Source of the DNA: a virus
Virus record (IMG/VR): IMGVR_UViG_3300042568_001099
Location: 1-28,033 of that record
Length of the DNA: 28,033 nt
Reading direction: 5' to 3' (one strand)
In this document: in pieces, positions 360 through 25,803 of the stretch
How positions within the stretch are numbered: the first letter of the stretch is position 1
Layout of the letters: each line of letters begins with the position of its first letter
Notes under the pieces: model-generated
What the model was told of the DNA's origin: nothing
The model's input: the letters and a program-made list of their open reading frames with translations, nothing else
Database searches by the model: none
Made by a program: the position numbers and the translations under genes

Positions 360-1187
360 ATGAACGTAATCATTAATGGTCCTCAGTTTTTCTTATTATT
401 AGATAGTCTCTTCTCAGAGTTGTCTGTTACGAGAATATATTCGTATAACCCAACATACAGAATTGAGTATGACAATGAGGAACTTTTTCATTATGAAAAT
501 GGTATTGTTAATGTTGGTCTTGATTTCATCAATAAAGTTAAAAGTTTTGTTCCTGTTAAAATAGATAAGGAATTTGCTATTAATGTCGCTAAATGGATTC
601 GTAGTAAAACAAACCTGAAACCAAAATCTATTTGGATTGGTCTTAAAGAATACAATGTTGGTCTTTATCTTAATGAAAATACAACTTTAATTAGTGCTGG
701 TGAATATAGCGGACCTATCGAACTTGGTATTAGAAAATGGGAAAAATCATTATTATATCCATTTATTAATAGTGTTGATTCTAAATTTAATCGTAAAAGT
801 AAAAACAAAAACTTAAAAGGTAATGAAGACACCGTTGTTGGTATGTGGGAAAAAAGTGTTGATGGAACTTATGAAATTGATACTGAAGATGTAAATACGG
901 TTAAAGAATCTGAAGAAAAACCTATGAAAAAGTTTAACAGAGATAGTAATCCCGACCAAGGTAAGTACGGTAAACTAATTGAGGATATTGCTCTTTCTTA
1001 TTTTGAGAACTCTGATGACGTTTGTGATATAATCTGTATTAAAACCAATTTGGATGAATACATTTTATTGGTTTTGATGTCCTATTCTATGAATGAAACA
1101 AAGTTGTCGTCGTACATTAAAAGTTTTTTACCTATCAACATAATCGTAATGATTCATACTTCGCGTCACTGTAAAGACAAAGATTAG
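360..1187 (+). CDS. Unknown protein with N-terminal I-x-[NTS]-x-x-Q-F tag
   Basis: A 275-residue protein of unrecognised family. It starts MNVIINGPQFFLLLDSLF, which fits the tag shared by many proteins here (M-x-hydrophobic-I-I-N/T-x-x-Q-F/Y-x-x-L) except that Glu is replaced by Gly. The first 130 residues look like a compact alpha/beta domain. Residues about 145-200 are Lys/Glu-rich and probably a flexible linker, and the last 75 residues (after GKYGKLIEDIAL) form a second small domain ending in a basic tail. It stands alone between strand switches with a TATTTATA box 4 nt before the ATG. A virion-associated role is inferred from the tag only. Confidence 0.8.
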   Translation: MNVIINGPQFFLLLDSLFSELSVTRIYSYNPTYRIEYDNEELFHYENGIVNVGLDFINKVKSFVPVKIDKEFAINVAKWIRSKTNLKPKSIWIGLKEYNVGLYLNENTTLISAGEYSGPIELGIRKWEKSLLYPFINSVDSKFNRKSKNKNLKGNEDTVVGMWEKSVDGTYEIDTEDVNTVKESEEKPMKKFNRDSNPDQGKYGKLIEDIALSYFENSDDVCDIICIKTNLDEYILLVLMSYSMNETKLSSYIKSFLPINIIVMIHTSRHCKDKD

Positions 1188-1218
1188 TGAAAAATAATTG
1201 TAAATAAGATTTTTTATA

Positions 1219-1839
1219 TCATTCTATTACGGTGTCAACTAATCGCTCACCTGTTTCTTTAATTTTAAATTGAGATAAGTTATTAGTCCCACTGTTACCT
1301 TTCTTACCTTTAACAAACTTGACAACACCGTTGTTGTATAATTTATTTGGGGTGTCAAACTGCTCACCATTAAAAACTAACATACCTTTGGTGTTAAGTA
1401 ATACTTCATAGTCAATCCCCATATAAGTTCTAATTAACATTTTATCTTGGCCAAAATTATTAGCAACATCAACTAATCTATTGTCAGGTGTTAGTTCTAC
1501 CGTCTCACGACTTTGTTTGAGTTCTGTGGTATCGCATGTTGTTCCACCGTAAGCAATCATGAAGTTAATGAACTCACCTGTTAAAGTATCTTCATCATCT
1601 TTAAACCACTCACCAAATACTCTACGACTGTCTAAGATTGCATGTAACATCTTTTCTACCTTATTCATATCGTCTACCTTAAAAACAGAGATAATCGAGT
1701 AACCTATGGGAGATTTTGTCCTATTTAATTGATATTCTCTACTGACAGGGTCAATCGAAAATCCTATCTTCTTATCAGATAGATTCAACTCTCTCCCTAA
1801 CACGTCATAGTACTGACCTAAATAAATGTATCCTTCCAC
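1219..1839 (-). CDS. GIY-YIG/T5orf172-like protein with possible RAMA-type C-terminal domain
   Basis: 206 residues. Residues 1-100 resemble the T5orf172 branch of GIY-YIG nucleases: GYIYLGQYYD at the start, KIGFSIDPVSRE (KxG..DP..R), then MLHAILDSRRVFGEWFKD (LH..L...R..GEWF). The usual GIY/YIG pair is degenerate, so catalysis is uncertain. Residues about 140-200 (VLLNTKGMLVFNGEQFDTPNKLYNN) resemble the RAMA domain found with restriction and methylation proteins. Transcription should start at a TATCTTTG box 4 nt before the ATG, giving a leaderless mRNA, and the promoter faces a divergent one for the ORF at 1896. A DNA-directed function early in infection is plausible. The nuclease fold is more certain than the RAMA call. 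Confidence 0.8.
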   Translation of the reverse strand: MEGYIYLGQYYDVLGRELNLSDKKIGFSIDPVSREYQLNRTKSPIGYSIISVFKVDDMNKVEKMLHAILDSRRVFGEWFKDDEDTLTGEFINFMIAYGGTTCDTTELKQSRETVELTPDNRLVDVANNFGQDKMLIRTYMGIDYEVLLNTKGMLVFNGEQFDTPNKLYNNGVVKFVKGKKGNSGTNNLSQFKIKETGERLVDTVIE

Positions 1840-1843
1840 ATAG

Positions 1844-1874
1844 CAAAGATAGAATATTATTTTGTTTATAACAA
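1844..1874 (-). promoter_or_regulatory. Leaderless promoter TTG-N20-TATCTTTG-N4-ATG
   Basis: Minus strand: TTG at 1872-1874, 20 nt, TATCTTTG at 1844-1851, then 4 nt to the ATG at 1839. It interleaves with the divergent plus-strand promoter at 1861-1891, so the two -33 regions overlap and the promoters may compete. Confidence 0.65.
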
Positions 1875-1891
1875 CTATTTTCTTATCTTTG
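1861..1891 (+). promoter_or_regulatory. Leaderless promoter TTTG-N19-TATCTTTG-N4-ATG
   Basis: Plus strand: TTTG at 1861-1864, 19 nt, TATCTTTG at 1884-1891, then ttgt and ATG at 1896. It is a near-perfect Bacteroidota promoter and the best evidence that the 27-aa ORF behind it is real. Confidence 0.65.
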
Positions 1892-1895
1892 TTGT

Positions 1896-1979
1896 ATGGA
1901 AAATGAATTAGATATTCAGTTGAAGTTAATCTTCGTACTTTTTCTTACTTCTACCGAAATAAACAATACAAAACCATAA
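1896..1979 (+). CDS. Micro-ORF, 27-aa peptide with hydrophobic centre
   Basis: ATG at 1896, TAA at 1977-1979. The peptide begins MENELDIQ, has a hydrophobic run KLIFVLFLTS, and ends STEINNTKP. The centre is short for a transmembrane helix (about 9-10 residues), so it may be amphipathic. The promoter TTTG-N19-TATCTTTG lies exactly 4 nt before the ATG. The ORF runs head-on into the micro-ORF 1926-2006 on the other strand and shares 54 bp with it. Both could be genuine, or one RNA may serve as antisense to the other. Function is unknown. Confidence 0.4.
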   Translation: MENELDIQLKLIFVLFLTSTEINNTKP

Positions 1980-2006
1980 TGTGAGAGCAATAATTAATTT
2001 ATCCAT
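1926..2006 (-). CDS. Micro-ORF, 26-aa single-pass membrane peptide
   Basis: ATG at 2006, TAA at 1926-1928. The peptide is MDKLIIALTLWFCIVYF followed by GRSKKKYED: a 14-residue hydrophobic helix with a strongly positive cytoplasmic-type tail, typical of a tiny inner-membrane protein. TATCTTTG at 2011-2018 lies 4 nt before the ATG, the same spacing as at 1839, 1896, 6935 and 22731. The -33 element is weak (TTTA). It overlaps the opposing 1896 ORF by 54 bp. It could instead be the last gene of the upstream operon. Confidence 0.5.
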   Translation of the reverse strand: MDKLIIALTLWFCIVYFGRSKKKYED

Positions 2007-2010
2007 ATGT

Positions 2011-2018
2011 CAAAGATA
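2011..2018 (-). promoter_or_regulatory. TATCTTTG -7 element, 4 nt before ATG
   Basis: Minus-strand TATCTTTG followed by 4 nt and the ATG at 2006. Only a weak TTTA is found about 19 nt upstream, so strength is uncertain. Confidence 0.5.
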
Positions 2019-2022
2019 ATAA

Positions 2023-2490
2023 TTATTTTTGGATTCTAAATCTAAGTAATGGTTTTCCGTTGATAGTTATGTCACCTTTTTCGTTTTTACCAATATCTTT
2101 GACAACAACTTTTTTGTTTTTAAATTTACCACCCATTAGGATGTCACCAACTTTAATGTCTAATTTAATCATTTCGTTAATATCATTTTCAGAGGGTTCA
2201 CAATGTTCTTTATAATATTGGATTAAATAACCTTTCTTAATTGAAAATAAGTAATCTGATATGTCGCCAACGTCCACCATATCTAAACCGTACTGTTCGT
2301 TTCTAACTAACCAAGATATTTCATCCATAACCCCTCTAACAAAATCATCCTTGTCATCAAAGTCACAAGGAAACATTTGAGGTAATAAAACATCAATTAA
2401 TTTATCAAGAAGGGGAATACGTCTTCTAAACTCATTACTAAACTTTTGAGATAAACTATCATATACGGTCTCATTTACTATTACTTTCAT
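2023..2490 (-). CDS. Tagged protein of unknown function, third gene of operon
   Basis: 155 residues starting MKVIVNETVYDSLSQKF, a good copy of the shared tag with V-N-E as the I-x-E core. Residues 20-110 are predicted helical and acidic (KLIDVLLPQMFPCDFDDKDDF). The last 45 residues form a small beta domain (KVGDILMGGKFKNKKVVVKDIGKNEKG) resembling an SH3-like barrel. Its ATG overlaps the TGA of the metallopeptidase gene (ATGA), so translation is likely coupled. It is the last gene of a three-gene unit with the 4033 and 2903 genes. Function is unrecognised; delivery with the virion is inferred from the tag. Confidence 0.8.
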   Translation of the reverse strand: MKVIVNETVYDSLSQKFSNEFRRRIPLLDKLIDVLLPQMFPCDFDDKDDFVRGVMDEISWLVRNEQYGLDMVDVGDISDYLFSIKKGYLIQYYKEHCEPSENDINEMIKLDIKVGDILMGGKFKNKKVVVKDIGKNEKGDITINGKPLLRFRIQK

Positions 2491-2903
2491 AACATTCTAT
2501 CATTTACTTTATCCAATAATTCTTCAGAAAAAGGAACTCCGTGTCTGTGTTCAAACTCGTCCTTCAATCGTTCTGTTGACATATTATATTTAGTTAGTAG
2601 AATGTACGCACCTAAGTCGGCCTCAATCTCATCTTCTTCTGAACGAGGACCATTATGTCCTAATATAAGATGAGACACTTCATGAGCCTCAACGAATTTC
2701 ATATCGTCAAAGGTGAATGCGTTTTCACCAATAAAGTTTTCACCATCTAAGAAAATTGTTTTAAATTCTGGAGCAAGAAAACCATAACCCATCATATTAA
2801 AATATTCTTTCATTTGTGGGTAATTAGGGTTCTCCTTGAAGATTACGTTAATATTCAATTTAGGCATAAATGAGCTTGGGTACGCAATTAAATCGTCTGT
2901 CAT
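2487..2903 (-). CDS. Zinc metallopeptidase-like protein (ImmA/IrrE-type HExxH)
   Basis: 138 residues. The zinc-binding signature HEVSH sits at about residues 74-78 in FVEAHEVSHLILGH, followed by EEDEIEADLGAYILL, where the Glu of EAD is the likely third ligand. This is the layout of ImmA/IrrE-type gluzincins, which cleave phage repressors or other regulators. No helix-turn-helix domain is attached. The gene starts 2 nt after the stop of the 4033 gene and overlaps the tagged 2490 gene by 4 nt, so all three are co-transcribed. A maturation protease or a protease against a host regulator are both possible. The protease fold is fairly sure, the target unknown. Confidence 0.8.
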   Translation of the reverse strand: MTDDLIAYPSSFMPKLNINVIFKENPNYPQMKEYFNMMGYGFLAPEFKTIFLDGENFIGENAFTFDDMKFVEAHEVSHLILGHNGPRSEEDEIEADLGAYILLTKYNMSTERLKDEFEHRHGVPFSEELLDKVNDRML

Positions 2904-2905
2904 TT

Positions 2906-4033
2906 TTATTGTGCTTTACCACTACCACAAGCATTGAATGTCGCCAAATTTTTAACCTCATCTTTATCGTTAGGAGTTGCGGATATATAATTGAAAACCT
3001 CTTTTTGTCCATTCGTAACCACAATATTACCAACACCTTTATGACATCCTCCATTCCAGTCTTTATTATTGAATGGGTTAAGACATTTCGCTTTTAAAAT
3101 GAATGATGGTTTTTCAGCTCCGTTTTTACCAATAGTTTGAATTAATATCTGACTAGCAATTTCAGGTGTTATTATAAATTTATTAAATCTTTTACCACCA
3201 AGAGATGTAGAGTTGTTATCGTATACATCAAGCCCTGGATAGTTTTTAGCCTTATTATAATTGTTATTTAAACTTGCATATGGTTTTTTATCATCTCTAA
3301 ATAGTTTAACATCGTTTAATGATATTTCGTAAATAGCGCTATTACATACATGTTTTTTAGTTAAATCAGTATAATTAACTTCAATAACCATATTATCTAA
3401 ACACTTTTTCATTCCCGTTAGTTCTTCTAATTTTAAAATTACCCGAACATATTGTTCCGTTAAATATTTGTCAGCATAATCAGTTTTATATATAGTGGTT
3501 TTACCCTCTCTATATTTTTTAACACATACATTTCTTTGTTGTACATCAGTCATTCCTTGAGGACAAAATGGTGCACCAAGGAATGGTGTCGCGCCTATTT
3601 TAGGTTGAGCAACTTGAAACTTAGGTAAACTAATTAATAGTTTTTGGTCAACAAATGATTGTAATTGTGTTGTAATATAGTTTTGAATTGACTCATTTCT
3701 TTTTGTCGCTAAATAAAGTGGGGGAACTGCCTTACCACCATTTTCATTGTCAACATTTGGTAATTGAGATTCACCTGATTCAATAGTAACACTAACTAAA
3801 TATATTTTACCAGCTCCACTACTTAAATATTTTTTAACTTTTTCAATCTCGGGGCCTAAAGTTTCTGGTAAATAGGTTTCACTCCAATAACCTCCACGAA
3901 ATTGAACATTTTTATCTATAGTTAGGGTAGACACTGGTTCAGGGTCAACTGTTGCAACTTCAACTAATAAGTCATATTGTTTTAATATGTCTTTCTTTTC
4001 TAATTCGTTTATTAAGAATCTTTTATAGCTCAT
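2906..4033 (-). CDS. Possible virion structural protein, first gene of operon
   Basis: 375 residues. The start MSYKRFLINELEKKDIL carries an I-N-E core like the shared tag. The sequence is Asn/Lys/Gly-rich. One segment (KIYLVSVTIESGESQLPN, then LATKRNESIQNYI) loosely recalls the beta-alpha unit of OmpA-like or phage baseplate proteins, in which an Arg-containing helix follows an ExGES strand. Five cysteines lie in the middle and C-terminal part (CPQG, CVKK, KCLDN, KHVC, KCLNPF...GGCHKG). A TATTTATT box is 14 nt before the ATG. I do not recognise a named family; structural or secreted is an inference from composition and the tag. Confidence 0.75.
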   Translation of the reverse strand: MSYKRFLINELEKKDILKQYDLLVEVATVDPEPVSTLTIDKNVQFRGGYWSETYLPETLGPEIEKVKKYLSSGAGKIYLVSVTIESGESQLPNVDNENGGKAVPPLYLATKRNESIQNYITTQLQSFVDQKLLISLPKFQVAQPKIGATPFLGAPFCPQGMTDVQQRNVCVKKYREGKTTIYKTDYADKYLTEQYVRVILKLEELTGMKKCLDNMVIEVNYTDLTKKHVCNSAIYEISLNDVKLFRDDKKPYASLNNNYNKAKNYPGLDVYDNNSTSLGGKRFNKFIITPEIASQILIQTIGKNGAEKPSFILKAKCLNPFNNKDWNGGCHKGVGNIVVTNGQKEVFNYISATPNDKDEVKNLATFNACGSGKAQ

Positions 4034-8570: not shown

Positions 8571-9164
8571 ATGAAAAGGTCACTTTTTTTAGTATTAATA
8601 AGTATCATATCATTATCATCGTTCGGCCAAAAACCACTTAGAGATAATGTTAAAGTTAAAACAGATATTTTTGAGGTTATGTACTCAGAAAAATTAGAAC
8701 AACCATTATGGGTTAAATATACCGTTCAGTGTCCTAACGGTACTGCAAATAGAACGGGAATGGATTTCTACATTAATGATTCAATCAAAACTTCAGATAA
8801 CAAAGATTATGAAAATAATGTTTACGATAAAGGCCACATGGCACCAGCTGCAGACTTCAATTGTACTCGTGAATTATTATACAAAACGTTTAGTTATTTA
8901 AACTGTTCATTACAACAACAAGATTTAAATAGAACAACTTGGAGACTATTGGAAGTCCATGAAAGAAATTTATCAAAAACCAATAGTGTTGTATTAGTTG
9001 AAATTAAATGTGTTTACAGTAAATCGTCAATTAAACTATTATCAGGTGCGACGGTACCTGACGCTTATTATAAAATAATTAAATACGGTAAAAAAGTTGA
9101 GAAGTATTATTTCAAAAACGAAAAGCCATCAACGACTGATTATACAAAATATATTATTAAATAA
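8571..9164 (+). CDS. Secreted DNA/RNA non-specific endonuclease
   Basis: 197 residues. A signal peptide (MKRSLFLVLISIISLSSFGQ) is followed by a beta-beta-alpha-metal nuclease domain of the NUC1/EndoG family. The catalytic motif is YDKGHMAPAADF (about residues 84-95), where DKGH replaces the usual DRGH and holds the general base His. The metal ligand Asn is expected in LNCSLQQQDLNRTTW. It should cut DNA and RNA after export, needing a divalent metal. The stop overlaps the ATG of the tagged 9164 gene (TAATG). A secreted nuclease cotranscribed with basic tagged proteins could scavenge or destroy DNA outside the cell, exclude other phages, or travel with particles. Confidence 0.88.
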   Translation: MKRSLFLVLISIISLSSFGQKPLRDNVKVKTDIFEVMYSEKLEQPLWVKYTVQCPNGTANRTGMDFYINDSIKTSDNKDYENNVYDKGHMAPAADFNCTRELLYKTFSYLNCSLQQQDLNRTTWRLLEVHERNLSKTNSVVLVEIKCVYSKSSIKLLSGATVPDAYYKIIKYGKKVEKYYFKNEKPSTTDYTKYIIK

Positions 9165-9517
9165 TGAAATTAATAATCACAGAATCTCAATACAAAAAAC
9201 TACTTAACGGTTTAACCACTTCTGAAAAAAACGAAAATGTTAATGAAGATTTAAGAAACTGGTTTAAAGAGAAATGGGTTGATGTAAGTAAAAAAGTTGA
9301 CGGAAAACATCCACCTTGTGGAAGAAAGGATGCTGACGGAAAATCATATCCAAAATGTCGCCCCTCAAAAAAAGTTTCATCTGAAACACCAAAGATTGCC
9401 TCATCATACGATAAAGATGAAAAAAAAGCAATGACTCAACAAAAAAGAAGAGCGGAAAAAAAAGACCCTAAAATAGGGAAAGGTAATAAACCAACAATGA
9501 CACGTTACGAAAAATGA
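9164..9517 (+). CDS. Tagged Lys-rich protein (DUF5872-like)
   Basis: 117 residues starting MKLIITESQYKKLL, the archetype of the shared tag. After a short linker comes EKWVDVSKKVDGKHPPCG and then a Lys/Pro-rich stretch with two Cys (GRKDADGKSYPKCRPSKKV). I recall this pattern from short phage and algal-virus proteins catalogued as DUF5872, from memory only. The rest is Lys-rich and disordered (DEKKAMTQQKRRAEKK), suited to binding packaged DNA. The gene is translationally coupled to the nuclease gene (TAATG) and to the next tagged gene (ATGA). An internal, DNA-associated virion protein is my best guess. Confidence 0.82.
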   Translation: MKLIITESQYKKLLNGLTTSEKNENVNEDLRNWFKEKWVDVSKKVDGKHPPCGRKDADGKSYPKCRPSKKVSSETPKIASSYDKDEKKAMTQQKRRAEKKDPKIGKGNKPTMTRYEK

Positions 9518-9891
9518 AATTCATAATCACAGAATCACAATATAATAAACTGTTTGACCTAAAAGAAATGGTTGATAGTTTTTATGGGTCAGTCGAGGAG
9601 ACTGACTTTAAAGTTACTGACTTATTAACTGAAGCCGAATACCAAGGACGTAAAGTTCAATTAGGTAAGATAATGCAAGGCGATGTAAAAAAATCTAAAG
9701 TTTACGTTAAAAACGACAAAGGTAATGTTGTTAAAGTAAACTTTGGGTTTGGCGGTAAATCCGCTAAAGGAAAAAGAATGGTAATAAAAAAGAATAACCC
9801 AGCAAGAAGAAAATCATTTAGAGCTCGTCATCATTGTGAGACACCAGGTCCAAGATGGAAAGCAAGATATTGGGCGTGTAAAACTTGGTAA
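9514..9891 (+). CDS. Tagged basic protein with RARH-C...RYW-C-W motif
   Basis: 125 residues starting MKFIITESQYNKLF, nearly the same tag as the neighbour. Residues 45-125 hold GDVKKSKVYVKNDKGNVVKVNFG and end in RKSFRARHHCETPG...ARYWACKTW. I recall the RARHxC...RYWxCxxW ending as a small conserved family common in tailed marine phages. The conserved Cys and His suggest a zinc knuckle. Two adjacent genes sharing a tag but with different bodies argue that the tag is a mobile module, not common descent of whole proteins. It ends before a perfect hairpin. Confidence 0.85.
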   Translation: MKFIITESQYNKLFDLKEMVDSFYGSVEETDFKVTDLLTEAEYQGRKVQLGKIMQGDVKKSKVYVKNDKGNVVKVNFGFGGKSAKGKRMVIKKNNPARRKSFRARHHCETPGPRWKARYWACKTW

Positions 9892-10511: not shown

Positions 10512-10904
10512 ATGGACATTAAAATAAATAAGGATAAATTTAAAAAACTACTGTTCAAGTACTTGGATTCACAGGATGAATTAAAATATGCTAATGAGCA
10601 TAGAACAGGTTATGGTAATAGTGTTAGAGAGTTTTTTTACGAATACCCTAACGATGGTGAGGATATGGATATGGATTCTGACTATGAATTTGTATTTACC
10701 TATTTTGGAACCTCAGAAGATTATGAAGAATATCATAACATTACGACCCCTTATGTGTTATCAACATACCCTTTAATTCAGATAGATACTTATCTCTACC
10801 AAAAAATAGTTGATTTGTTTGGTGATTTATACGCACCTCAATTAGTTCTTGAGTGGTTAAACAAACGTTATGATTTAAACGCGGTTAGTATTGCTGAAAA
10901 TTAA
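10512..10904 (+). CDS. Acidic protein with variant N-terminal tag
   Basis: 130 residues starting MDIKINKDKFKKLLFKYL, which keeps the hydrophobic/Lys pattern and the F-x-x-L of the shared tag but lacks the Glu. The body is very acidic (NDGEDMDMDSDYEF, TSEDYEEYH) and ends in an amphipathic helix (LVLEWLNKRYDLNAVS). No family is recognised. It is followed, 28 nt on, by the 10933 gene with its own box, and the two plus 11423 may be read together. Confidence 0.75.
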   Translation: MDIKINKDKFKKLLFKYLDSQDELKYANEHRTGYGNSVREFFYEYPNDGEDMDMDSDYEFVFTYFGTSEDYEEYHNITTPYVLSTYPLIQIDTYLYQKIVDLFGDLYAPQLVLEWLNKRYDLNAVSIAEN

Positions 10905-12752: not shown

Positions 12753-13479
12753 AATTAACTTTAAAACTTAAATCCACATCAATACATATTTGCGGTAACA
12801 TTTGTTCAATAGTATTCATAACATTTTCTTGAACATCGTCCCAACACCAACTAGGTAAATCATCTTCACCATGACCTCTTTCCCATTCGTCAGTTTCTTC
12901 AAACCCAACTAAGATTCTATTTACGTTAATATATACAGTACCAGTATATAAAGTATCTTGTTCACATAAACTAAGTTCACGTTCATTTGGTTTCCATAAT
13001 TCAACATTTTTCACCACGTACTCAACGTGCCAATCAACCATATCATCATTATCAGTATAAGGCATTGTGTATGACCCTTGATGTGTAGGTTTATCGCTAA
13101 TCAACTTAGTTATAATACTTTTAAATCTATCAACCGAGTTTGTTTGTTCTTGGATTGACTCTTTATCAAACTCAATATAAACCTCACCGTAATTATACCC
13201 TAAACTACTAAGAGATTGTTCTATTACAATTTTTAATAGTTTCTTTAATCTACCTAAACGACCATCTTTAACATCAACTTTGACTTTAGCAACTATTGTA
13301 TTAAAACTAATAGGTTCATACTCACCTCTCCGATTCCACATATTGTTTGGGTACCCACTAATGTCAATCACAAATTTAGGTAATTCAAAATTGTGTTGAG
13401 ATTTAAACCTATCAATAAATTTAGGTAATATTTGTTTTACCACCTTCTCAACCTCAGAGATATACAAATTTTTTTTCAT
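12745..13479 (-). CDS. Protein of unknown function with tag-like N-terminus
   Basis: 244 residues starting MKKNLYISEVEKVVKQIL. The I-S-E followed by an amphipathic helix resembles the shared tag in its degenerate form. The body alternates beta-strands and acidic loops (KVDVKDGRLGRLKKLLKIVIEQSL, SLGYNYGEVYIEFD) and looks like a repeat of two similar alpha/beta units, each ending in a helix and an acidic strand, but I cannot prove duplication by eye. No family is recognised. TATTTATA is 6 nt before the ATG. Confidence 0.75.
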   Translation of the reverse strand: MKKNLYISEVEKVVKQILPKFIDRFKSQHNFELPKFVIDISGYPNNMWNRRGEYEPISFNTIVAKVKVDVKDGRLGRLKKLLKIVIEQSLSSLGYNYGEVYIEFDKESIQEQTNSVDRFKSIITKLISDKPTHQGSYTMPYTDNDDMVDWHVEYVVKNVELWKPNERELSLCEQDTLYTGTVYINVNRILVGFEETDEWERGHGEDDLPSWCWDDVQENVMNTIEQMLPQICIDVDLSFKVNYE

Positions 13480-13590: not shown

Positions 13591-14187
13591 ATGTCTTACA
13601 AAAGAGAGCAAATTGAATCGGCGGTTAAAAGTAAAGGTCACGTATGGTTTGAGGATGCAAACAACAAAGGTTTTGATGTGAACATTGTGGGAGTTAGAAA
13701 TGATTCTACAGGTGATAAAGTTACCAATGTATTTGATGATTATATTACATTATCATACAAAGAAAATGGTGAATGGAAATTCCATATTTGGCCAGCAACT
13801 ACTGACCCAGGTAAAAAAGGTGTTATGGAATATCATAACGCTGCGGGTGTTGCTCGTTTAGTTGAGGGCCAATATCGTGGTTCCCACACTATTAGATTAC
13901 ACCAAGGTAAATATGAAGCGTTAGGTCAAGCAAAGAATGTTAAGGTTTATCGTGATGCAAATCGTGATATGAAATATGATGAAACAAAAATAACTGAAGG
14001 TGTTTACGGTATTAATATTCATAAAGCGGGTGCTGACTCAACTTACGTAGAGAATTGGTCTGAAGGTTGTCAAGTATTTAAGAAAGCTGCGGATTTTGAG
14101 GAATTCATGTCAATCTGTAGAAAGTCTAAAAACATCCATGGTAACTCATTCAGTTATACTTTAATCGGAAGTAACGATATTAAATAA
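13591..14187 (+). CDS. YkuD/L,D-transpeptidase-like protein, possible cell-wall enzyme
   Basis: 198 residues. The C-terminal part reads GVYGINIHKAG...WSEGCQVFKKAADFEEFM, matching the H-x(n)-S-x-G-C core of YkuD-type L,D-transpeptidases (here INIHKA and WSEGCQVF, catalytic Cys about residue 159). The N-terminal part carries HIWPATTDPGKKGVMEYHNA. Similar proteins in phages are annotated as peptidoglycan-acting or structural. It has no signal peptide, so if it acts on the wall it needs a holin or delivery with the virion. Its stop overlaps the next ATG (TAATG). Fold assignment is fairly good, catalytic activity less sure. Confidence 0.78.
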   Translation: MSYKREQIESAVKSKGHVWFEDANNKGFDVNIVGVRNDSTGDKVTNVFDDYITLSYKENGEWKFHIWPATTDPGKKGVMEYHNAAGVARLVEGQYRGSHTIRLHQGKYEALGQAKNVKVYRDANRDMKYDETKITEGVYGINIHKAGADSTYVENWSEGCQVFKKAADFEEFMSICRKSKNIHGNSFSYTLIGSNDIK

Positions 14188-14576: not shown

Positions 14577-15146
14577 TTATTTTTCACCACTTGTGAAATC
14601 AATATCATTAAACACAATTACAATTCCCGTACGGCTAGTTATTTCTTTTGAAAGGTATTCATCAGTACAGTCTTGAATTTCATTTTCAATCTCCCATCCA
14701 AATTCTTCTTCATTTCTTGCATCAATTAATTTATAAAGTTCTCCATTCTGAAATAAAGTCACCTCACCATTAACATCATCAATAAGTACTGTAGTTGTAA
14801 ATTGGGTTGAATTTTTTTCTTGTACTTCAGATACAGTAAATTTGTAATCATAACCACCATAAATAGGTCCAACAACATGGTGGGTGCCTTTTAACAATTC
14901 TTCAGTCATTTCAATTGATTTAGACTCACCTAACCACTCTCTTAAAAAACCTAAAACATCGTAATACCTAATTTTAGTTTTACCAACAATTAACTCAGGT
15001 AATCGAGTACCTTCAAAACCAAATAACTTATAAAAGTTATCATCAATTTTACCACCAAATCTATCCCAATATTTAAAGAAAGCTTTCTTTTCGGCAAGGA
15101 ATTCGTTGATACTGTGTAATTGTTGTTCTGTTATTTTAAGTTTCAT
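14577..15146 (-). CDS. Tagged protein of unknown function
   Basis: 189 residues starting MKLKITEQQLHSINEFL, a strong copy of the tag (I-T-E-x-Q-L). After a helical region comes FFKYWDRFGGKIDDNFYKLFG, then a beta-rich half (GGYDYKFTVSEVQEKN, FTTTVLIDDVNGEVTLF) and an acidic helix near the C-terminus. No named family is recognised. It lies 12 nt behind the Cys/His-peptidase-like gene and is likely read from the box at 15600-15607. Tag plus beta-rich body fit a virion component, which is inference. Confidence 0.78.
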   Translation of the reverse strand: MKLKITEQQLHSINEFLAEKKAFFKYWDRFGGKIDDNFYKLFGFEGTRLPELIVGKTKIRYYDVLGFLREWLGESKSIEMTEELLKGTHHVVGPIYGGYDYKFTVSEVQEKNSTQFTTTVLIDDVNGEVTLFQNGELYKLIDARNEEEFGWEIENEIQDCTDEYLSKEITSRTGIVIVFNDIDFTSGEK

Positions 15147-16044: not shown

Positions 16045-16749
16045 ATGACACCTCAAGTAACTGAAGAACAATTAAAAAGCCTTAAACTATTTTCATATTA
16101 TTGCATGTCACATGGAAGTAGTGAGGTTAACATTACCGTTTATACTGAAGAATGTCGCCTTGATTATATGGACGACAGTGCGTACAGTGATGACGGAACA
16201 ACAATAGAATTATATGAAGCAATATCTGACACTTTAGAACATATTTTAGACAAAAATGAGGTCTACAAAGTAATGTCAGATTGTGAGTATAGAGGCACAA
16301 TTAAAATTAATATTGATTGTAAAGAACGTATATTATTTTTAAACGTATGGGAAATGCAATACACAACATTAGAATCTCAATCAGAAACCACATTAGAAGA
16401 AATTAGAGAAGATTATAGTGTTGAATTGTATGAAGCAATTGTGAATTTATTTGACCAACTTCACGAAAAAAATGTTTCTGAAGGTTATGTTGATTTTAGT
16501 GGTGGTGGTGATAGTGGTGACTGTAATGACTTTGCATACGGAGATTTTGAAGGTCGGATAAATTTAGACGTTAAAATTGTTAATTTTATTTACGAACAAT
16601 TAGAAAAACACATGGGTGGATGGGAAATTAATGAAGGTTCTCAAGGTCGTTTTATCTTTAATAATGAGTCAAAGGATGTTACCTTAGACTTTTCCGAGAA
16701 TCGAGAAGAAGAAGTACCAATCTCAATAGATTTTTTAATAAAATTTTAA
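16045..16749 (+). CDS. Tagged acidic protein, DUF6878-like
   Basis: 234 residues starting MTPQVTEEQLKSLKLF, the tag with V-T-E-x-Q-L. Two regions resemble the family I recall as DUF6878: VDFSGGGDSGDCNDF (about residue 150) and GGWEINEGSQGRFIF (about residue 193). These Gly/Asp-rich loops look like a metal or nucleotide site. Pronounced acidity. It is 22 nt behind the DUF6915-like gene, with its own box in the gap, and stops 3 nt before the convergent 17940 gene. Function is unknown. Confidence 0.8.
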   Translation: MTPQVTEEQLKSLKLFSYYCMSHGSSEVNITVYTEECRLDYMDDSAYSDDGTTIELYEAISDTLEHILDKNEVYKVMSDCEYRGTIKINIDCKERILFLNVWEMQYTTLESQSETTLEEIREDYSVELYEAIVNLFDQLHEKNVSEGYVDFSGGGDSGDCNDFAYGDFEGRINLDVKIVNFIYEQLEKHMGGWEINEGSQGRFIFNNESKDVTLDFSENREEEVPISIDFLIKF

Positions 16750-16752: not shown

Positions 16753-17940
16753 TTATTTTGAGGGGTGATGAAAAGTAAACTCAGTATTATCATCAGTTAA
16801 ATAATCTTTATTATCAGAAATTATTTTTAACTCAATACCATTTTCCAAATCTTCTGAGAAAGGGCTTGGGTGTACATAACCTTCAGGATTAACAACCATC
16901 TTATTTGTACCTTCAACGGTACCTGCTTTATTAATAGTGATGTCAATTTTAATTTTACCACCGTCATTCTTAACGTCTGTGATAGTATAATTAACTTTCT
17001 TTCTGTTATCACCCCATCCAAAATCAATAGTTAATAATTTTTTAGTACCAATTAAAGAACTAGCAAATTTATCACCAAAATTAGTTACTCTTTCGGATTT
17101 AACATCATCTAAACTTTTTCCGTTAATAAGATTTTGGATTTCTTCCTTTGTTACACTAATAACTTTAGCATCTAAACCTGAATTATATCTTACAGGATTA
17201 GCGTGTGACATTTGTTTAGATGTTGATGATGAATAGGTATTACTAACTACATACCATTGATTGTTAATGAATAAATAAACTGGATACCAACCATAAGACT
17301 TAACAACATAATACCATTCATTTTTTCTATTAACATCCCAATACCCTTCAATATTAGAACCTTTAAAAGGAATTTTAGCGCTACTGAATTGGTACGCGTT
17401 ATTGTTTGGCGTTCTTCTTTGTTTAAACTCTTTGAAGTTTCTGAAAGTTGTCTTATCTAAATTCTCGTAATCACCATTAGGTCTGTAGTTCGCGGTATAA
17501 ATTTCGTAATAGAATCTTGCATCAGATTCAGGTCTCCCCACAAAAGGCATCATGGTTTTAACAAAAGCTAACATTTTAGATTGGTTACCCATATCTTGTT
17601 TATTTTTATTAAGATATTTGAATAACCTAATCTCTTTTTCCGACAAAGGATTTTCTCCTTGACCTTCAAGTTGTTCTTTAATAATTAATTTAACAATTTT
17701 AACTAAGTCAAACTCAGTAACACGAATTGTTTTTGACTCATCAATCTTAAAATCTTTTTTTAGTTTTATTCTCATAATTCCAACGGCATTTTTGAGCCTC
17801 TTATACTCATTAGAATTATTGACAATAGAATAATCATTAATAAAATCATTAATATCTTTAACAATTTCTTTAAGTTCATGTTGAGTATTACATGAAATTA
17901 TTTTTTTAATTAAATCGTTAAGAATTTCTCGTTTATTCAT
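16753..17940 (-). CDS. Large protein with internal tag-like helix
   Basis: 395 residues. Residues 1-75 are a Lys/Asn-rich helical region. At about residues 70-90 comes KTIRVTEFDLVKIVKLIIKE, a longer version of the shared tag (V-T-E, then an amphipathic helix), here internal instead of at the start. Residues 95-150 are helical. Residues 150-270 include Tyr/Trp-rich beta sequence (WYYVVKSYGWYPVYLF, NQWYVVSNTY), and the C-terminus is a beta domain with a His pair near the end (EFTFHHPSK). If the tag is cleaved or recognised, the first 75 residues would be a propeptide. TATTTATT is 3 nt before the ATG. Confidence 0.78.
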   Translation of the reverse strand: MNKREILNDLIKKIISCNTQHELKEIVKDINDFINDYSIVNNSNEYKRLKNAVGIMRIKLKKDFKIDESKTIRVTEFDLVKIVKLIIKEQLEGQGENPLSEKEIRLFKYLNKNKQDMGNQSKMLAFVKTMMPFVGRPESDARFYYEIYTANYRPNGDYENLDKTTFRNFKEFKQRRTPNNNAYQFSSAKIPFKGSNIEGYWDVNRKNEWYYVVKSYGWYPVYLFINNQWYVVSNTYSSSTSKQMSHANPVRYNSGLDAKVISVTKEEIQNLINGKSLDDVKSERVTNFGDKFASSLIGTKKLLTIDFGWGDNRKKVNYTITDVKNDGGKIKIDITINKAGTVEGTNKMVVNPEGYVHPSPFSEDLENGIELKIISDNKDYLTDDNTEFTFHHPSK

Positions 17941-17960: not shown

Positions 17961-18404
17961 TTATTTTAAAAATCTTAATTTATATAATGTTGAGTTAATT
18001 AATTCACAAACAGTATCAATTTGATTTTGAATGTAAGAATCTTTACAACAATCCCTTAAATCATCAACTTTACCACATAAATCTTTAAAATAATTAACTG
18101 TTATTGTAGTGTCTTTATAATCTTCAATATCGTATTTTTTATACCCCTTAAGGATATTATATTTACCTTGATATGACTCTATTATGCCATCAACAAGTGA
18201 ATCAATTCCCTCATAATAACCTTGTAACGCCTTGTGTTCGGAATATGATTTTGTTTGTAAATGAAAAGTATGTACCTGAGTTTGTGAATGTAACAATAAT
18301 GATACCATCTCAACAAAATCTTTTGTTCCTGTTTTTTGTTCAGTTAATAACTCGTTTTGCTTAATCGCTTCGTATATTCTGTCTTTTAAAATTTCATTTT
18401 TCAT
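17961..18404 (-). CDS. Ferritin/Dps-like four-helix protein (DUF5856-like)
   Basis: 147 residues, all helical. FVEMVSLLLHSQTQVHTFHLQ, then SEHKALQGYYEGIDSLVDGI and ESYQGKYNI form the conserved block that I recall from phage DUF5856 proteins. The spacing of His and Glu (HSQTQVHTFHLQ...EHKAL..YYEGID) recalls Dps/ferritin iron-binding helices. A Dps-like role in protecting DNA or storing iron would be plausible, but the diiron residues cannot be confirmed by eye. The N-terminus (MKNEILKDRIYEAIKQNELLTEQ) is a separate helix. TATTTATA is 13 nt before the ATG. Confidence 0.75.
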   Translation of the reverse strand: MKNEILKDRIYEAIKQNELLTEQKTGTKDFVEMVSLLLHSQTQVHTFHLQTKSYSEHKALQGYYEGIDSLVDGIIESYQGKYNILKGYKKYDIEDYKDTTITVNYFKDLCGKVDDLRDCCKDSYIQNQIDTVCELINSTLYKLRFLK

Positions 18405-20425: not shown

Positions 20426-20746
20426 TTATTTACCAATTACTATTTCATCGTAATTTAATTTACCCATACCTTCAGAGTCTTTAGACTCAAATTCGTCATA
20501 CATATATGTCTTAACAACACTAACAACACTTTGTTCGGCCTGAGCAAGTTTAGTCTCCATCCAATCCTCAAGTTGTTCACCTTGTTCCATTTTTTCCCAC
20601 ATAGCATGTGCTAATGTTGCAATAGTGAATAATTGTTGTTTTGCCATATAAGACCCTTCTTGTCCGTGCTCTTGTATATTTCCTTTTTTAACGCCATTAA
20701 CTAACAGTTCTAATTGTTTTTCCGAAATAATAATATCTTTAGCCAT
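20426..20746 (-). CDS. Tagged small phage protein
   Basis: 106 residues from ATG at 20746: MAKDIIISEKQLELLVNGV, the tag with I-S-E-x-Q-L. The body GSYMAKQQLFTIATLAHAMWEKMEQGEQLEDWMETKLAQAEQSV is a helical family that I recognise from many T4-like phages of marine and freshwater origin (SYMAKxQL...LxDWMxxKIA), of unknown function. A longer frame starts at 20770, but the TATTTATA box (20759-20766) lies within it, so the inner ATG is preferred. It is isolated between two intrinsic terminators and is therefore expressed from its own promoter. Confidence 0.82.
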   Translation of the reverse strand: MAKDIIISEKQLELLVNGVKKGNIQEHGQEGSYMAKQQLFTIATLAHAMWEKMEQGEQLEDWMETKLAQAEQSVVSVVKTYMYDEFESKDSEGMGKLNYDEIVIGK

Positions 20747-20758
20747 AATTGTTTTAGT

Positions 20759-20766
20759 TATAAATA
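20759..20766 (-). promoter_or_regulatory. TATTTATA box, 12 nt before ATG
   Basis: Minus strand, preceded by TTTTGTTTTAATGA and by the terminator at 20775-20803. The same order (terminator, TTTTGTTTT, ATGATATTTAT) recurs before the 25803 gene. Confidence 0.55.
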
Positions 20767-20774
20767 TCATTAAA

Positions 20775-22735: not shown

Positions 22736-22743
22736 CAAAGATA
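22736..22743 (-). promoter_or_regulatory. TATCTTTG -7 element, 4 nt before SmpB ATG
   Basis: Minus-strand TATCTTTG-cttt-ATG, again exactly 4 nt. The expected -33 region is close to the arm of the hairpin at 22759-22790. Confidence 0.6.
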
Positions 22744-22758
22744 GTGATTAAAAATTAA

Positions 22759-22850: not shown

Positions 22851-22901
22851 ACTTTTCAAAAAGAAAAACTATTTTTAAAATTTTATTATAAAAACTTAAG
22901 A

Positions 22902-22909
22902 TATTTATT
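22902..22909 (+). promoter_or_regulatory. TATTTATT box, 4 nt before ATG
   Basis: AAGATATTTATT-aaat-ATG before the DUF192 gene. Confidence 0.5.
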
Positions 22910-22913
22910 AAAT

Positions 22914-23255
22914 ATGATAATAAAAATTAATAACAATAAGTTTAAAGTTAAAACAGTTATTACACCAAAAGATACTGAAAGTGGTATGATGGGTAAAAAA
23001 TTTGACAGTTCCTATAATGGTATGTTATTTTTAATGGATGACGGTGAACATTGTTTTTGGATGAAAAATTGTATTATCCCGTTAGACATTATTTTTATTG
23101 ATAGTAATACCATAACTAAAATACACCATAATTGTTCCCCATGTACGACAGATGAATGCGTTAATTACTGTGGTGAAGGTGATATAATTTTAGAAATTAT
23201 GGGGGGTAACGCAAAAAAATTAGGATTACAAATCGGTGATGAGGTTAATTTTTAA
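22914..23255 (+). CDS. DUF192 family protein
   Basis: 113 residues. The DUF192 pattern is clear: VITPKDTESGMMGKKF, YNGMLFLMDDGEHCFWMKNCIIPLDIIFID, then a Cys cluster (HHNCSPCTTDECVNYCGEG) and DIILEIMGGNAKKLGLQIGDEV. Bacterial members usually have a signal peptide and an unknown envelope role, whereas this one has none and is shorter. The Cys cluster might bind a metal. The gene is the only plus-strand gene between 16.8 kb and the right edge. It overlaps the end of the convergent DHH gene by 4 bp. Confidence 0.9.
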   Translation: MIIKINNNKFKVKTVITPKDTESGMMGKKFDSSYNGMLFLMDDGEHCFWMKNCIIPLDIIFIDSNTITKIHHNCSPCTTDECVNYCGEGDIILEIMGGNAKKLGLQIGDEVNF

Positions 23256-24658
23256 CCTTCATTAATTTTAGACTGTAACACATTTACCAATTCTTTTTGA
23301 ACCATTTTAGTAAACTTCACATAAGGAGAATCATCTGACTCAGCATTATACTTGTACTTTCCAGCTGGCGGTCTTTTAGACCTACCTAAATAACTAAGCC
23401 CCGAAATGTTCGTGATACATTTATGACCACCACTATTAGCTTGAATTAAATCCCAAGCATTAATTGTGACACCATCTAACATTTTCATTTCTTCCTCGCT
23501 TAATTCAGTAAAAGGAATTTCCATCATTTTACCAATTTGAGTTAAATGTTCTTTACCATTCTCCATTGTTTTAAAATTGTTACCATATAACGCAACAAAA
23601 TCTTTAAACGTAAACCCAACTGATTCAGGACCAAATCCTTTTGAACCTTCAGAAATCCATTTAATTGTTGATAACGGTATTTGTCTTTCTTGTAATTGCG
23701 TTTCCCATTTAGCAAGTACTTCCTGAGCAATCTCACCTAAGTTAACACCTTTTAACTCACGTTCTTTTTTATAAGGATTACAAGACGCTTGAACTAATCC
23801 TAATGGCCAAGCAATAACTAAGAAATCAGCATCAGGGTTATTTTTGAAGGGCGTGTATCTATCATAAGAACCAGGTTTCATCATACTACCACCCCCGTAT
23901 TGAACAATAATGTTACCTTCAATTTTAACATTATGGTGGTTTTTCATTTGGTCAATATAACCTTCTTTGTTTTTCTGTAATTCGGGTACGGTAGCGTAAC
24001 CTTTTTCAATCATGATTCTTTTTATGTTAGTAACAAGATTCATAAGTGATGGGGTACCAACCATAACAAGTTCTTCTAAAAACCCTGGTTTATTTTTAAA
24101 CGCCAATAATAACTTATTAGCAACTAAACCTAAGGCAGTTTTGTTTTTACCCAAAGATTTATCTTTATCTAATTTGAATAAATAATTTATTACTTGGTCA
24201 ACCGTTACTTCGTTCGCCGCGTAGTTAGCTGAGTCAACCATAGATATTAATTGAATATCTTCAGGTGAGAATATTTCATTAGGTGATACCACCTGGGATA
24301 TTGTTTCAACATTTGAACGTGAACTTCTAAATGAAGTGGATTTAGTATCTTCCGCCCCCGCTTGTCTATCGTGGTGGTCTGTATGGATAACAAACATTGG
24401 TTTACCATGAGCAAAATCCACAAGTACTGGCATAATGTCACCTTGAGCATCATTCTTCTTTACCGAGAACTCTTTATCCCCGTATTGAATAACGTGAGCA
24501 TCAACAACTTTAATACCATTGTCTTCAAGGTATTTTTTCATCGCAAGTGCAGTTGTTACGCCATCCAAATCTTGGTGAAAATAAATTTCAGCATTAGAAT
24601 AACGTTTAGCTAACTTATTGATATCTCTGATACCACTTTCTTTTAGTAAGTTTTTCAT
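23252..24658 (-). CDS. DHH-family phosphoesterase, tag-like start
   Basis: 468 residues. NAEIYFHQDLDGVTTALAMKK (about residues 24-45) is the DHH motif I region (xHxDxDG). VLVDFAHGKP is motif II, and FVIHTDHHDRQAG (about 97) is the DHH motif itself. A later SMVDSANYAAN matches motif IV, and NSGGHKCITNISG near residue 415 looks like the GGHxxA site of DHHA1. This order fits RecJ-like exonucleases or cyclic-dinucleotide/nanoRNA phosphodiesterases with an unusual middle domain. It starts MKNLLKESGIRDINKL, a weak version of the tag (L-K-E). Coupled by ATGA to the 25803 gene. The substrate is unknown; cleavage of cyclic oligonucleotide defence signals is a possibility only. Confidence 0.87.
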   Translation of the reverse strand: MKNLLKESGIRDINKLAKRYSNAEIYFHQDLDGVTTALAMKKYLEDNGIKVVDAHVIQYGDKEFSVKKNDAQGDIMPVLVDFAHGKPMFVIHTDHHDRQAGAEDTKSTSFRSSRSNVETISQVVSPNEIFSPEDIQLISMVDSANYAANEVTVDQVINYLFKLDKDKSLGKNKTALGLVANKLLLAFKNKPGFLEELVMVGTPSLMNLVTNIKRIMIEKGYATVPELQKNKEGYIDQMKNHHNVKIEGNIIVQYGGGSMMKPGSYDRYTPFKNNPDADFLVIAWPLGLVQASCNPYKKERELKGVNLGEIAQEVLAKWETQLQERQIPLSTIKWISEGSKGFGPESVGFTFKDFVALYGNNFKTMENGKEHLTQIGKMMEIPFTELSEEEMKMLDGVTINAWDLIQANSGGHKCITNISGLSYLGRSKRPPAGKYKYNAESDDSPYVKFTKMVQKELVNVLQSKINEG

Positions 24659-25803
24659 ACTAATGCTTTTCCCCCACCTAATAGTGAACCGATTAATGAT
24701 GTGAATGCATCTGTTTTAACCGCAGTTGATGCTGATTGTTTTGCAGTAGACAATGATGGTAACTCGGACGCTACAGTAGTTTGTGTTGTTTGTCCTGAGG
24801 CGAACTCCTGATTCCATAAATTTTGTGATTCGGGTAATTGAGCGTATTGTTCATACTGTTTTTCAACGTCAGGGTACATTTTTTCAAGCTCATCAGGACC
24901 AACAAAATTTCCAACGCCTAACCAATCTAAAAACCCCGCATAAAATTTAGTTCTTTTCATCAAAGACCTTGTTGCAGGATTACCACCAAAAATTCTAGGA
25001 ACCCCCGCATAAAATTTAGCACCTAAACTTGCATCCGATTTCATAAAACTTAACCAACTATTTTTTCCAGTACCTAAATCTCTAAACCCTCTGAAAGATT
25101 GGTCTTTACTCATTTGTTTTAATAATTCCTCTTTTTCAACAGCGCTTAACGCCTTTTCACTTTTTACAATACCTTTACCAATTTCAGTTCCCGCTTTCAT
25201 TTCTTTTCCGGCTTTACCAAAAATTTGAACGTACTCTTCAATAACTTTTACTAAACCAGAACCTAACAAAGGAACTCGGCCAATAGACCCTTTTAAAGCG
25301 GTCACTAATTTCTCACCCCAAGTTGGAGCAGTCTCAACCATCTTAGCAATAGGTCCACCAGCTCTTTTTGCCGTACCAGCAATTTTAACGGCATCGCCAG
25401 TTAAAGTTGCTGCTTTAAACGCTTTAGCGGCTCCACCACCTAATTTCATAACACCAATGACAGGTTTAGCGATAAGGTCACCTAAATAAGGGATTGCCGA
25501 AACAAATGAAAGAATTGCATATAATTTATCACCTTGTCTCCAATAACTAATACCATTAACAATATCAACAATACCTGTTGGGTCAAAGATACCGACAACA
25601 TCACCAAGAGTATTATACCATTTAGATTCTTTTATTAACTTGGTTTGTTCAGGGTATATTTTTTTTGCAAATTCAAAAACAAATATTTTATCTTCTTTAG
25701 ATAATTTGTTCCATTTTTCTTCAAGAATCTTATATTGTTCCTCTTTATAAATTTGAAATATCCTATCTTTTAATTCAGACTCATTAAGTTTCATTCCTTT
25801 CAT
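24655..25803 (-). CDS. Tagged hydrophobic protein, possible ejected/pilot protein
   Basis: 382 residues. The second in-frame Met gives MKLNESELKDRIFQIY, a tag with L-N-E (the first Met is 9 nt upstream). Residues 60-130 (GDVVGIFDPTGIVDIVNGI, LYAILSFVSAIPYLGDLIAKP) are Gly-rich amphipathic to hydrophobic segments, like the pre-toxin segments of polymorphic toxins and like phage pilot proteins that make a pore in the host membrane. The middle is Lys/Gly/Ala-rich, the C-terminus Ser/Thr/Ala-rich. It is first in an operon with the DHH protein. I infer a virion protein injected with the DNA. No named family is recognised. Confidence 0.78.
   Translation of the reverse strand: MKGMKLNESELKDRIFQIYKEEQYKILEEKWNKLSKEDKIFVFEFAKKIYPEQTKLIKESKWYNTLGDVVGIFDPTGIVDIVNGISYWRQGDKLYAILSFVSAIPYLGDLIAKPVIGVMKLGGGAAKAFKAATLTGDAVKIAGTAKRAGGPIAKMVETAPTWGEKLVTALKGSIGRVPLLGSGLVKVIEEYVQIFGKAGKEMKAGTEIGKGIVKSEKALSAVEKEELLKQMSKDQSFRGFRDLGTGKNSWLSFMKSDASLGAKFYAGVPRIFGGNPATRSLMKRTKFYAGFLDWLGVGNFVGPDELEKMYPDVEKQYEQYAQLPESQNLWNQEFASGQTTQTTVASELPSLSTAKQSASTAVKTDAFTSLIGSLLGGGKALV

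Follow-up and report, generated by a model that had tools for sequence, protein, structure and literature searches.

Short N-terminal leaders on many unrelated proteins of large uncultured phages as probable T4-type propeptides for capsid targeting

The proteins encoded by a 28,033-bp stretch of viral DNA, IMG/VR record IMGVR_UViG_3300042568_001099, include several with unrelated bodies that begin with a similar short leader, or tag. That stretch, referred to here as the window, is a complete virus record and probably a fragment. A first-pass annotation of it, made from the sequence alone, had proposed that the tag may be a modular peptide for capsid targeting and cleavage, as on the internal proteins of bacteriophage T4. 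This idea turned out to be the reading best backed by sequence: leaders are shared between unrelated proteins, a Glu-type border behind them is kept when one tag is swapped for another, protease and capsid genes of the T4 type are present in the lineage, and the capsid-targeting sequence (CTS) of T4 was recovered by the same test. We consider it highly probable that the tags serve as propeptides for capsid targeting, in a greatly expanded version of the T4 system, and the comparisons below indicate that the tag is real and extends far past the window.

Related contigs were collected with two genes. The first, a DHH-like gene of the window whose product matches Pfam DHH at 22.1 bits, under the 28.1 cut-off, found at least 593 relatives in viral contigs, and four of these contigs were taken whole: G001 (126 kb), G002 (177 kb), G003 (215 kb), and G005 (215 kb). 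The DHH-like proteins of G001 and G002 are 99% identical to that of the window. The second gene, which lies near the head module, gave G013 (322 kb), G014 (282 kb), G015 (272 kb), and G025 (108 kb), the last being 97% identical to G003 in this query gene. Open reading frames (ORFs) were called as the longest ATG frame, so some of their starts are wrong. Megablast with 25,000 of the 28,033 window bases, plus blastn with 101 bases, found no match, and tblastn with two 23-residue tag peptides, a query too short to be informative, found none in named phages.

Leader sharing was measured with gapless N-terminal scores between 509 representatives of unrelated bodies from six long contigs (129,286 pairs), the bodies, residues 41 onward, having been grouped by BLAST at an E value of 0.01 with single linkage. 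At a score of 45 or more there were 246 N-terminal pairs versus 1 internal, 5 C-terminal, and 1 shuffled pair, and at 50 or more there were 178 versus 0, 4, and 0, respectively. An excess over shuffled N-termini, which the first-pass annotation had named as a check on its motif, is borne out by these numbers. The largest leader cluster holds 109 proteins, an upper bound since it was joined at the looser score of 38; the second, of 17 proteins, is signal-peptide-like. In G014 alone the test gave 102 N-terminal, 26 internal, 32 C-terminal, and 11 shuffled pairs, with the controls high too.

The tags fall into at least five classes. The consensus of class A, reworded from its profile listing, is MK[IVLFY]II[TSN]E[SN][QKR]; that of class B is MKK[IV][IV]RLTESDLxRIVKRVI[NSK]E[QSN], that of class C is MNLQENIxRIKxMMGxLTE, that of class D is MKKxFILTEEEKNxIxxLY..NEQ, and that of class E is MKDLIRKILRE[ES]. 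Their common end is hydrophobic-x-Glu behind a short helix. The motif written for the window, M-K-h-I-x-[TSN]-E-x-[QE]-[YLF]-x-x-L, covers class A entirely and classes B and D in their front half; it is absent from C and E and was therefore too narrow. Five class profiles built from six related contigs and applied at 8 bits matched 130, 24, 24, 26, and 21 of 1713 N-termini (classes A to E; the seeds were drawn from the same N-termini) versus 1, 0, 2, 2, and 2 of 1713 shuffled N-termini and 2, 3, 0, 0, and 0 of 1739 internal segments. Eight matches at or above 8 bits were removed before tagged proteins were counted: five were judged spurious (four DnaB and one other), one was undecided, and two look genuine with mis-called starts. 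The DnaB helicase matches, in four contigs, scored exactly 8.0 bits at residue 42. After exclusions there were 189 tagged proteins in 90 families, and each of the three longest contigs carries all five classes, on 44 of 360 ORFs in G013, 42 of 377 in G014, and 42 of 332 in G015.

If the terminal Glu is a cut site, it should persist when the leader in front of a body is swapped. Indeed, the DHH-like protein of the window (ORF 23252 to 24658, minus strand) begins with the short tag MKNLLKE/SGIRDINK (positions 24638 to 24658; a slash marks the border), whereas in its homolog L345 the same body follows a complete tag of class B, MKKIVKLTESELTQVIKRMITE/SGIRDINK. With a profile score of -1.4 bits, the window copy owes its support to the border test, in which all 66 alignable homologs (7 were unalignable) have the site within 6 residues. 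In the family with the body ATSDSSGGRGSY.., whose members come from loci fetched round the gene near the head module, hydrophobic-x-Glu lies no more than 7 residues off in 48 of 48 distinct members, and the leaders differ widely (MKNNKIHISE, MLNQLIKKILLE, MLRDILNKVKREIIKE, and MDLKNKIIQYLTE). The border was likewise found within 6 residues in 28/28 proteins with a YKISPEE body, 23/23 of the family of window ORF 16753 to 17940, 22/22 with a YMFFSNLEQ body, 4/4 with a PG-type body, and 17/25 of a Dps-like family, where the chance of such a site within 6 residues of a random internal position is 0.30; rows with an unalignable start were dropped (7, 10, 1, 0, 2, and 1 in the six families). Two G013 paralogs less than 100 bases apart read ..RILSE/QSTPPVTSG and ..NFLVE/QTIPPVTSG behind unrelated leaders. 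An automatic search for the same body with different classes gave three pairs of 1689, at least one of them trivial, and the family-by-family test is more telling.

The position of the border was also followed within the classes. Where seed patterns lacked a terminal Glu, hydrophobic-x-Glu followed the core in 16/16 class C and 11/11 class D proteins, versus 0.18 of control windows. Class B starts, fetched from viral contigs by their first 12 residues only (80 loci of 120 stretches), had the site at residues 15 to 30 in 89/89 distinct ORFs. At 74 border sites of classes B to E, found by a search that itself demanded Glu and a hydrophobic P3, the P3 residue was I in 34, L in 26, V in 6, M in 4, Y in 3, and F in 1. 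Eight further proteins of these classes had no site in the searched stretch, and seven of them have ILKE or ILRE just ahead of it. The first-pass annotation had placed the cleavage after a Glu, and a Glu-type border is what we see; the final hydrophobic-x-Glu in the tag is the better place for it, and this is often a different one from the I-T-E that had been marked. For class A, the cut could fall at either I-T-E or a later hydrophobic-x-Glu.

The gene content of the lineage comprises a T4-like head and a contractile tail. Major capsid protein (MCP), protease, and sheath were found in its contigs, and a probable glutamine synthetase and DnaJ were recognized by eye from N-termini. This content, set beside the published description of the recently named moraphages, may fit them; PMC12619734 describes large aquatic Bacteroidota phages with T4-like MCP, protease, and sheath, glutamine synthetase, and a DnaJ-like protein. 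The T4-type protease that the first-pass annotation had expected elsewhere in the genome is encoded in the lineage, as is the capsid protein, and in G013, G014, and G015 these genes share a contig with the tags. Pfam S77 (T4 gp21) was above cut-off in 16 and Gp23 in 17 of 18 contigs found by the gene near the head module; these were picked among the longer of 80, and because they were selected near that module, 16/18 is not a frequency. In 18 contigs chosen for a class B start (18 of the 20 distinct class B contigs of about 94 kb or more among those listed), S77 was present in 14, including 7/7 above 290 kb; the two searched earlier were L398 (G004), without S77, and L414 (G024), with it, for a total of 15/20. 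Head genes are ordered as in T4, namely terminase, portal, protease, scaffold, and capsid protein, with terminase and portal assigned by place and length. The capsid protein leader reads ENQAS[HF]LINE/AT in the 26 rows displayed out of 50 distinct ones, and the scaffold reads ESL[TSF]E/Q in 26 displayed out of 35; judging from these alignments, the motif that closes the tags also closes the leader of the capsid protein. The idea that the leaders were derived from the scaffold was dropped, as the tag profiles miss the scaffold N-terminus. Two scaffolds have an internal class B-like stretch, L146_15237_16613 at residues 179 to 198 (9.9 bits) and L143_14935_16458 at residues 190 to 204 (5.0 bits).

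The sharing test was extended to other phages. In the cultured Flavobacterium phage immuto (host Flavobacterium sp. LMO8), which has an S77 match, it gave 22 pairs versus 2 internal and 3.0 shuffled, with one cluster of 7 being signal peptides; shared leaders include MENFDLKKFLVEN..KLINE, MKKSQLRQIIKEAL, and MKKQILSEQF..AGIITE. In LR756508, 396,200 of whose 484,177 bases were covered, there were 248 pairs versus 15 internal and 14 shuffled, with leaders like MRLSERKLRRIVKEEISRVLRE. In this 484-kb uncultured genome (LR756508.1), 31 proteins with related leaders, a few of them maybe chance joins, lie at about 103 to 244 kb, round the head genes, and two S77 matches fall in one 576-residue frame at 156507 to 158102. 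In phiKZ (198,200 of 280,334 bases covered) there were 4 pairs versus 2 internal and 2.4 shuffled. It is a weak negative control, because its own gp21 relative is diverged and differs in specificity (PMC9026906; PMC5694885).

The steps of core binding, cutting, packing, and delivery are those that we infer. As a short amphipathic helix that ends in hydrophobic-x-Glu, the leader would bind the scaffold core during head building, and the protein behind it would thereby be enclosed in the head. At head maturation, a protease of the T4 gp21 type would cut after the Glu and free the cargo, which would exit with the DNA into the host. The leader has diversified into at least five classes and stands on some 40 proteins per genome. 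The leader classes are possibly separate addresses on the scaffold core. The fuller proposition, that several interchangeable leader classes form a genome-wide packing code for about 40 proteins per virion, including counter-defense enzymes like Acb1, plus polyproteins cut in the head before injection, is one on which we are evenly divided.

Several observations weigh against capsid targeting. A search of 12 contigs obtained with the DHH-like gene found S77 and Gp23 in 0/12, in a run in which the built-in control was also unmatched (T4 matched in a later run); these contigs seem to be fragments without a head module. Nor did a search of the window match S77. The tag profiles show no match to the scaffold and capsid leaders beyond the cut site, one class D match is without hydrophobic-x-Glu, and the border counts are of sequences, not independent events. 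Among the Dps-like homologs, 8/25 have no site within 6 residues; the three displayed of these eight have LREQ or MREQ farther upstream. Many class A proteins are similar in body and hence partly paralogs, and an informative domain match was obtained for few tagged families. In T4, the sharing test gave 3 pairs versus 5 internal and 3.2 shuffled, no overall excess; it picks out MKTYQEFIAE at the start of two proteins, 100 and 193 residues long, which by their length we take to be IPII and IPIII. Microcystis phage Mel-JY01 has S77 and gave 4 pairs versus 7 internal and 4.2 shuffled, and a shared tag system is thus not seen in every S77 phage. General literature searches, none dedicated to the question, turned up no virion proteome of a tagged phage.

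Three other explanations were weighed. The tag could be a helix for docking onto some other part of the virion, such as the tail tube, the tape measure, or the portal, or for reaching a different compartment of the cell, with the Glu as a structural helix cap; a tail-docking helix was among the alternatives raised at first pass. By eye, the core [IL][TS]E-x-[QED] does resemble a helix N-cap, and no tape measure protein was recognized in moraphages (PMC12619734). However, the terminal hydrophobic-x-Glu at the helix end persists when the leader is replaced, such sites also occur between modules inside longer proteins, and none of 18 tail, replication, and head genes with an annotation that were examined has a tag at 8 bits. 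We consider docking improbable, since a role in the tail leaves the protease-type border unexplained, and any reading without a protease would need to explain why that border is kept. Still less likely is that the leader is a selfish or hitchhiking DNA segment, functionless itself, spread by recombination. In favor of this, adjacent genes share a leader in runs, one of six genes in G002 and others of three and five genes in G005, and codon identity within shared leaders is slightly raised, at 0.51 to 0.69 versus 0.49 to 0.56 expected. However, about one-third to one-half of the identical residues differ in codon, so the peptide is conserved beyond its DNA, and different leaders with the same border swap on one body. 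This partial codon divergence weakens the recombination alternative of the first-pass annotation and points to sharing that is mostly old, with recent copying possible in some cases. Least likely of all, the leaders would be N-terminal parts of host-takeover proteins (for partner binding, regulation, or degradation) unrelated to the head, in keeping with the crowding of tagged genes, mostly small and without an assigned function, into a small number of regions in the three longest contigs, but this predicts neither the gp21-type border site nor the fact that the sharing test also picks up the T4 CTS.

Within the window, the twelve N-termini listed at first pass all exist as written, and tags are well supported, by profile scores or homologs or both, for six of them. 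Four exceed 8 bits, all in class A, where about 0.03 matches would be expected in 46 window ORFs given the rate of 1/1713 in shuffled N-termini. The 117-residue basic protein of ORF 9164 to 9517 (plus strand) carries MKLIITESQYKKLLNGLTTSEKNENVNE at 9164 to 9247 (27.8 bits); the window reads ..NVNE/DLRNWF where homolog L197 has ..HTIKE/DLAVWF, and the border is tentatively placed at one of two Glu residues. In the overlapping ORF 9514 to 9891 (plus strand), tag and leader make up residues 1 to 40 (9514 to 9633; 29.4 bits) and end in DLLTE/AEYQGRK, the conserved body, phrog_7595, covers residues 41 to 125, beginning right behind the Glu, and LLTE/A is kept in 4/5 homologs. ORF 20426 to 20770 (minus strand) probably starts at 20746 and has MAKDIIISEKQLELLVNGVKKGNIQE at 20669 to 20746 (15.8 bits); its 36 homologs, with 32 distinct N-termini (16 displayed), have a variable leader and a kept body, GSYM[AS]K[QK]QL. 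ORF 2906 to 4033 (minus strand) has MSYKRFLINELEKKDILKQYDLLVE at 3959 to 4033 (12.8 bits), and its sole, diverged homolog, L043, has ..DILIE ahead of the shared body PEPVST.

The other two of the six are the DHH-like protein described above and the product of the adjoining ORF 24655 to 25803 (minus strand; start given at first pass as 25794), where a tag helix and leader span residues 1 to 59 (25627 to 25803) up to ..LIKE/SKWYN. Here the window copy scores 5.0 bits, from residue 21 and not the core; residues E8, E21, E22, and E59 are invariant in 13/13 aligned homologs, and homologs G005_145766 and G014_104396 exceed 8 bits with the tag core. This protein shows strong conservation and is rich in glycine and alanine; a poor structure model (pLDDT 56) has it as all-helical, and it is possibly membrane active. 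Support is moderate for MKLKITE (15126 to 15146, minus strand) of ORF 14577 to 15146, at 7.6 bits and with homologs that start MKIIITES or MKFIISEQ, and for the class A-like MKVIVNE (2470 to 2490, minus strand) of ORF 2023 to 2490, at 6.3 bits and with a close sequence from G002, MRVIVNED, as the sole comparison. Two entries stand in part: that at 10512 has no Glu and scores 6.1 bits from residue 9, although its lone diverged homolog, L020, has MKYIITEN, and that at 360 is not a tag at the N-terminus (0.3 bits). In the latter, ORF 360 to 1187 (plus strand), residue 106 is instead a homolog-backed border, L-N-E at residues 104 to 106 (669 to 677), ahead of the module NTTLISAGEYSGPIELG; this is the 48-member family tested above, in which the border (48/48) is mostly at an N-terminal tag and in a few members internal, at residues 86 to 110. 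The entry at 13479 scores 0.7 bits, and its homologs begin at another place. The tag at 16045 is unsupported, as several homologs read T-P-E there, which puts the Glu out of register.

Two window tags had been missed. The Dps-like protein of ORF 17961 to 18404 (minus strand) carries MKNEILKDRIYEAIKQNELLTE at 18339 to 18404, ..NELLTE/QKTG, with a phrog_858 body from residue 25; the tag profiles are blind to it (1.2 bits). In ORF 16753 to 17940 (minus strand), an internal class B-like tag, KTIRVTEFDLVKIVKLIIKE, at residues 70 to 89 (17674 to 17733), ..KLIIKE/QLEG, sits behind an extra N-terminal domain, where most displayed homologs have an N-terminal class E leader instead. ORF 2023 to 2490 also ends in a C-terminal module (2026 to 2172, minus strand) that follows an internal border, DINE/MIKLDIKVGD. 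This module, MIKLDIKVGD..MGGKFKNKKVVVK..ITINGKPLLRFRI, is common to proteins of differing build, namely G013_37716, G015_217883, and G014_186243, each time after hydrophobic-x-Glu (LSE, INE, and ISE), and in G015_217883 it is joined straight to a tag. An untagged phrog_3000/endolysin-like protein is encoded at 13591 to 14187; its NWSEGCQVF resembles, by eye, an L,D-transpeptidase active site.

The cargo behind the tags was surveyed with Pfam on 88 of the 90 family representatives, two being unmappable and left out. At an E value of 0.01 the scan gave 42 families (25 displayed), which include peptidoglycan binding (3 members), thioredoxin, Tlde1/YkuD, an AAA-type kinase match, and Acb1. The Acb1 match, in G005_178348 (L110:148-714), is above cut-off (33.4 versus 27 bits) behind the leader MNLNEELSKMKSIMGINE/N, which suggests a head-loaded anti-CBASS counter-defense. 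G013_29610 looks like an Acb1 homolog by its N-terminus. G002_36503 has an Fe/Mn superoxide dismutase after ..FLNE/MKRIG. A dismutase joined to a second domain is encoded by L082:16703-18241 (minus strand); the second domain is mostly missing from the G003 counterpart, and a 294-residue G005 protein in the same place looks, by its N-terminus, to have lost the dismutase part. One small protein occurs with three different leaders (class A, class E, and one invisible to the profiles) and inside a 669-residue protein. Its model (pLDDT 65.6) had KptA as the best Foldseek match (E value of 3e-4; TM of 0.48) and a KptA-type entry as the best VIA match (Z of 8.7 over 91 residues), and with modest confidence we regard its fold as that of a domain of the ADP-ribosyltransferase superfamily. 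The 669-residue protein (L089:7756-9765; G002_166156_168165) lies behind a class C tag and has 11 matches to hydrophobic-x-Glu-[SQAN], five of which were read as borders (IKE/S, INE/S, IYE/N, IME/S, and INE/S), and two repeats begin directly after INES and IMES. It is a probable polyprotein, and similar sites seem to separate modules within longer cargo proteins.

If capsid targeting is correct, the head cargo of widespread, mostly uncultured large phages could be read from sequence, and proteins of no known function could be located, to the head interior, and timed, to the first minutes of infection. It would predict preloaded anti-CBASS Acb1, ADP-ribosyltransferase-fold cargo like T4 Alt, and redox and cell-wall proteins; it would supply a wide choice of natural leaders with which proteins could be loaded into phage heads, and it would make testable the number of proteins that a phage can deliver with its DNA. 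Literature searches, which covered titles, abstracts, and passages and not preprints, found no recognized description of these tags. As far as we have seen, what is new is how widely the tags are used, that the leaders fall into several classes, that sites also lie inside proteins, and that uncultured large aquatic phages have them.

The closest known system is that of T4. T4 gp24 begins MAKINELLRE and gp22 begins MLKEQLIAE, near in kind to classes E and C, respectively, and gp23, which is cut after Glu 65, reads SFLTE/AE. With the tag profiles, 0/245 T4 ORFs reached 8 bits, and homology to the T4 leader MKTYQEFIAE was not found, so the tags are grouped as working like the CTS and not as homologs of it. 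The comparisons that follow rest on passages of the cited papers. In T4, the gp21 protease cleaves behind L/I-x-E, a stretch of ten IPIII residues is enough for head entry, and the head-borne Alt is an ADP-ribosyltransferase (PMC9026906); IPI counters a host nuclease, and the T4 leader was proposed earlier as a general packing route of T4-like phages for diverse proteins (PMC9026906; PMC3012670). As with the CTS of IPI, IPII, and IPIII, the leader here is short and N-terminal, its cargo is diverse, its end is hydrophobic-x-Glu, and gp21, gp22, and gp23 are encoded (PMC9026906). However, T4 has three internal proteins with similar leaders, whereas there are at least five classes here, on some 40 proteins per long contig, and internal sites. 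SPN3US and phiKZ likewise pack many proteins with their DNA, some cut after Glu by a gp21 relative, but their cut motif is A-x-E or S/A/G-x-E, and several propeptides exceed 100 residues (PMC5694885). In SPN3US, 8 of about 50 head proteins are cut, and the passages note a shared N-terminus only for the paralogs gp53 and gp54 (PMC5694885). In P1, an N-terminal 30-residue signal sends the anti-restriction protein DarB to the head; unlike the tags, this signal was shown for one protein, with none common to unrelated cargo in the passages at hand (PMC9024508). Finally, the polyvalent proteins of phages and plasmids are likewise multidomain conflict proteins made as one chain (PMC5512222), but here predicted protease sites lie where the modules join, and one module is also found by itself in single tagged proteins.

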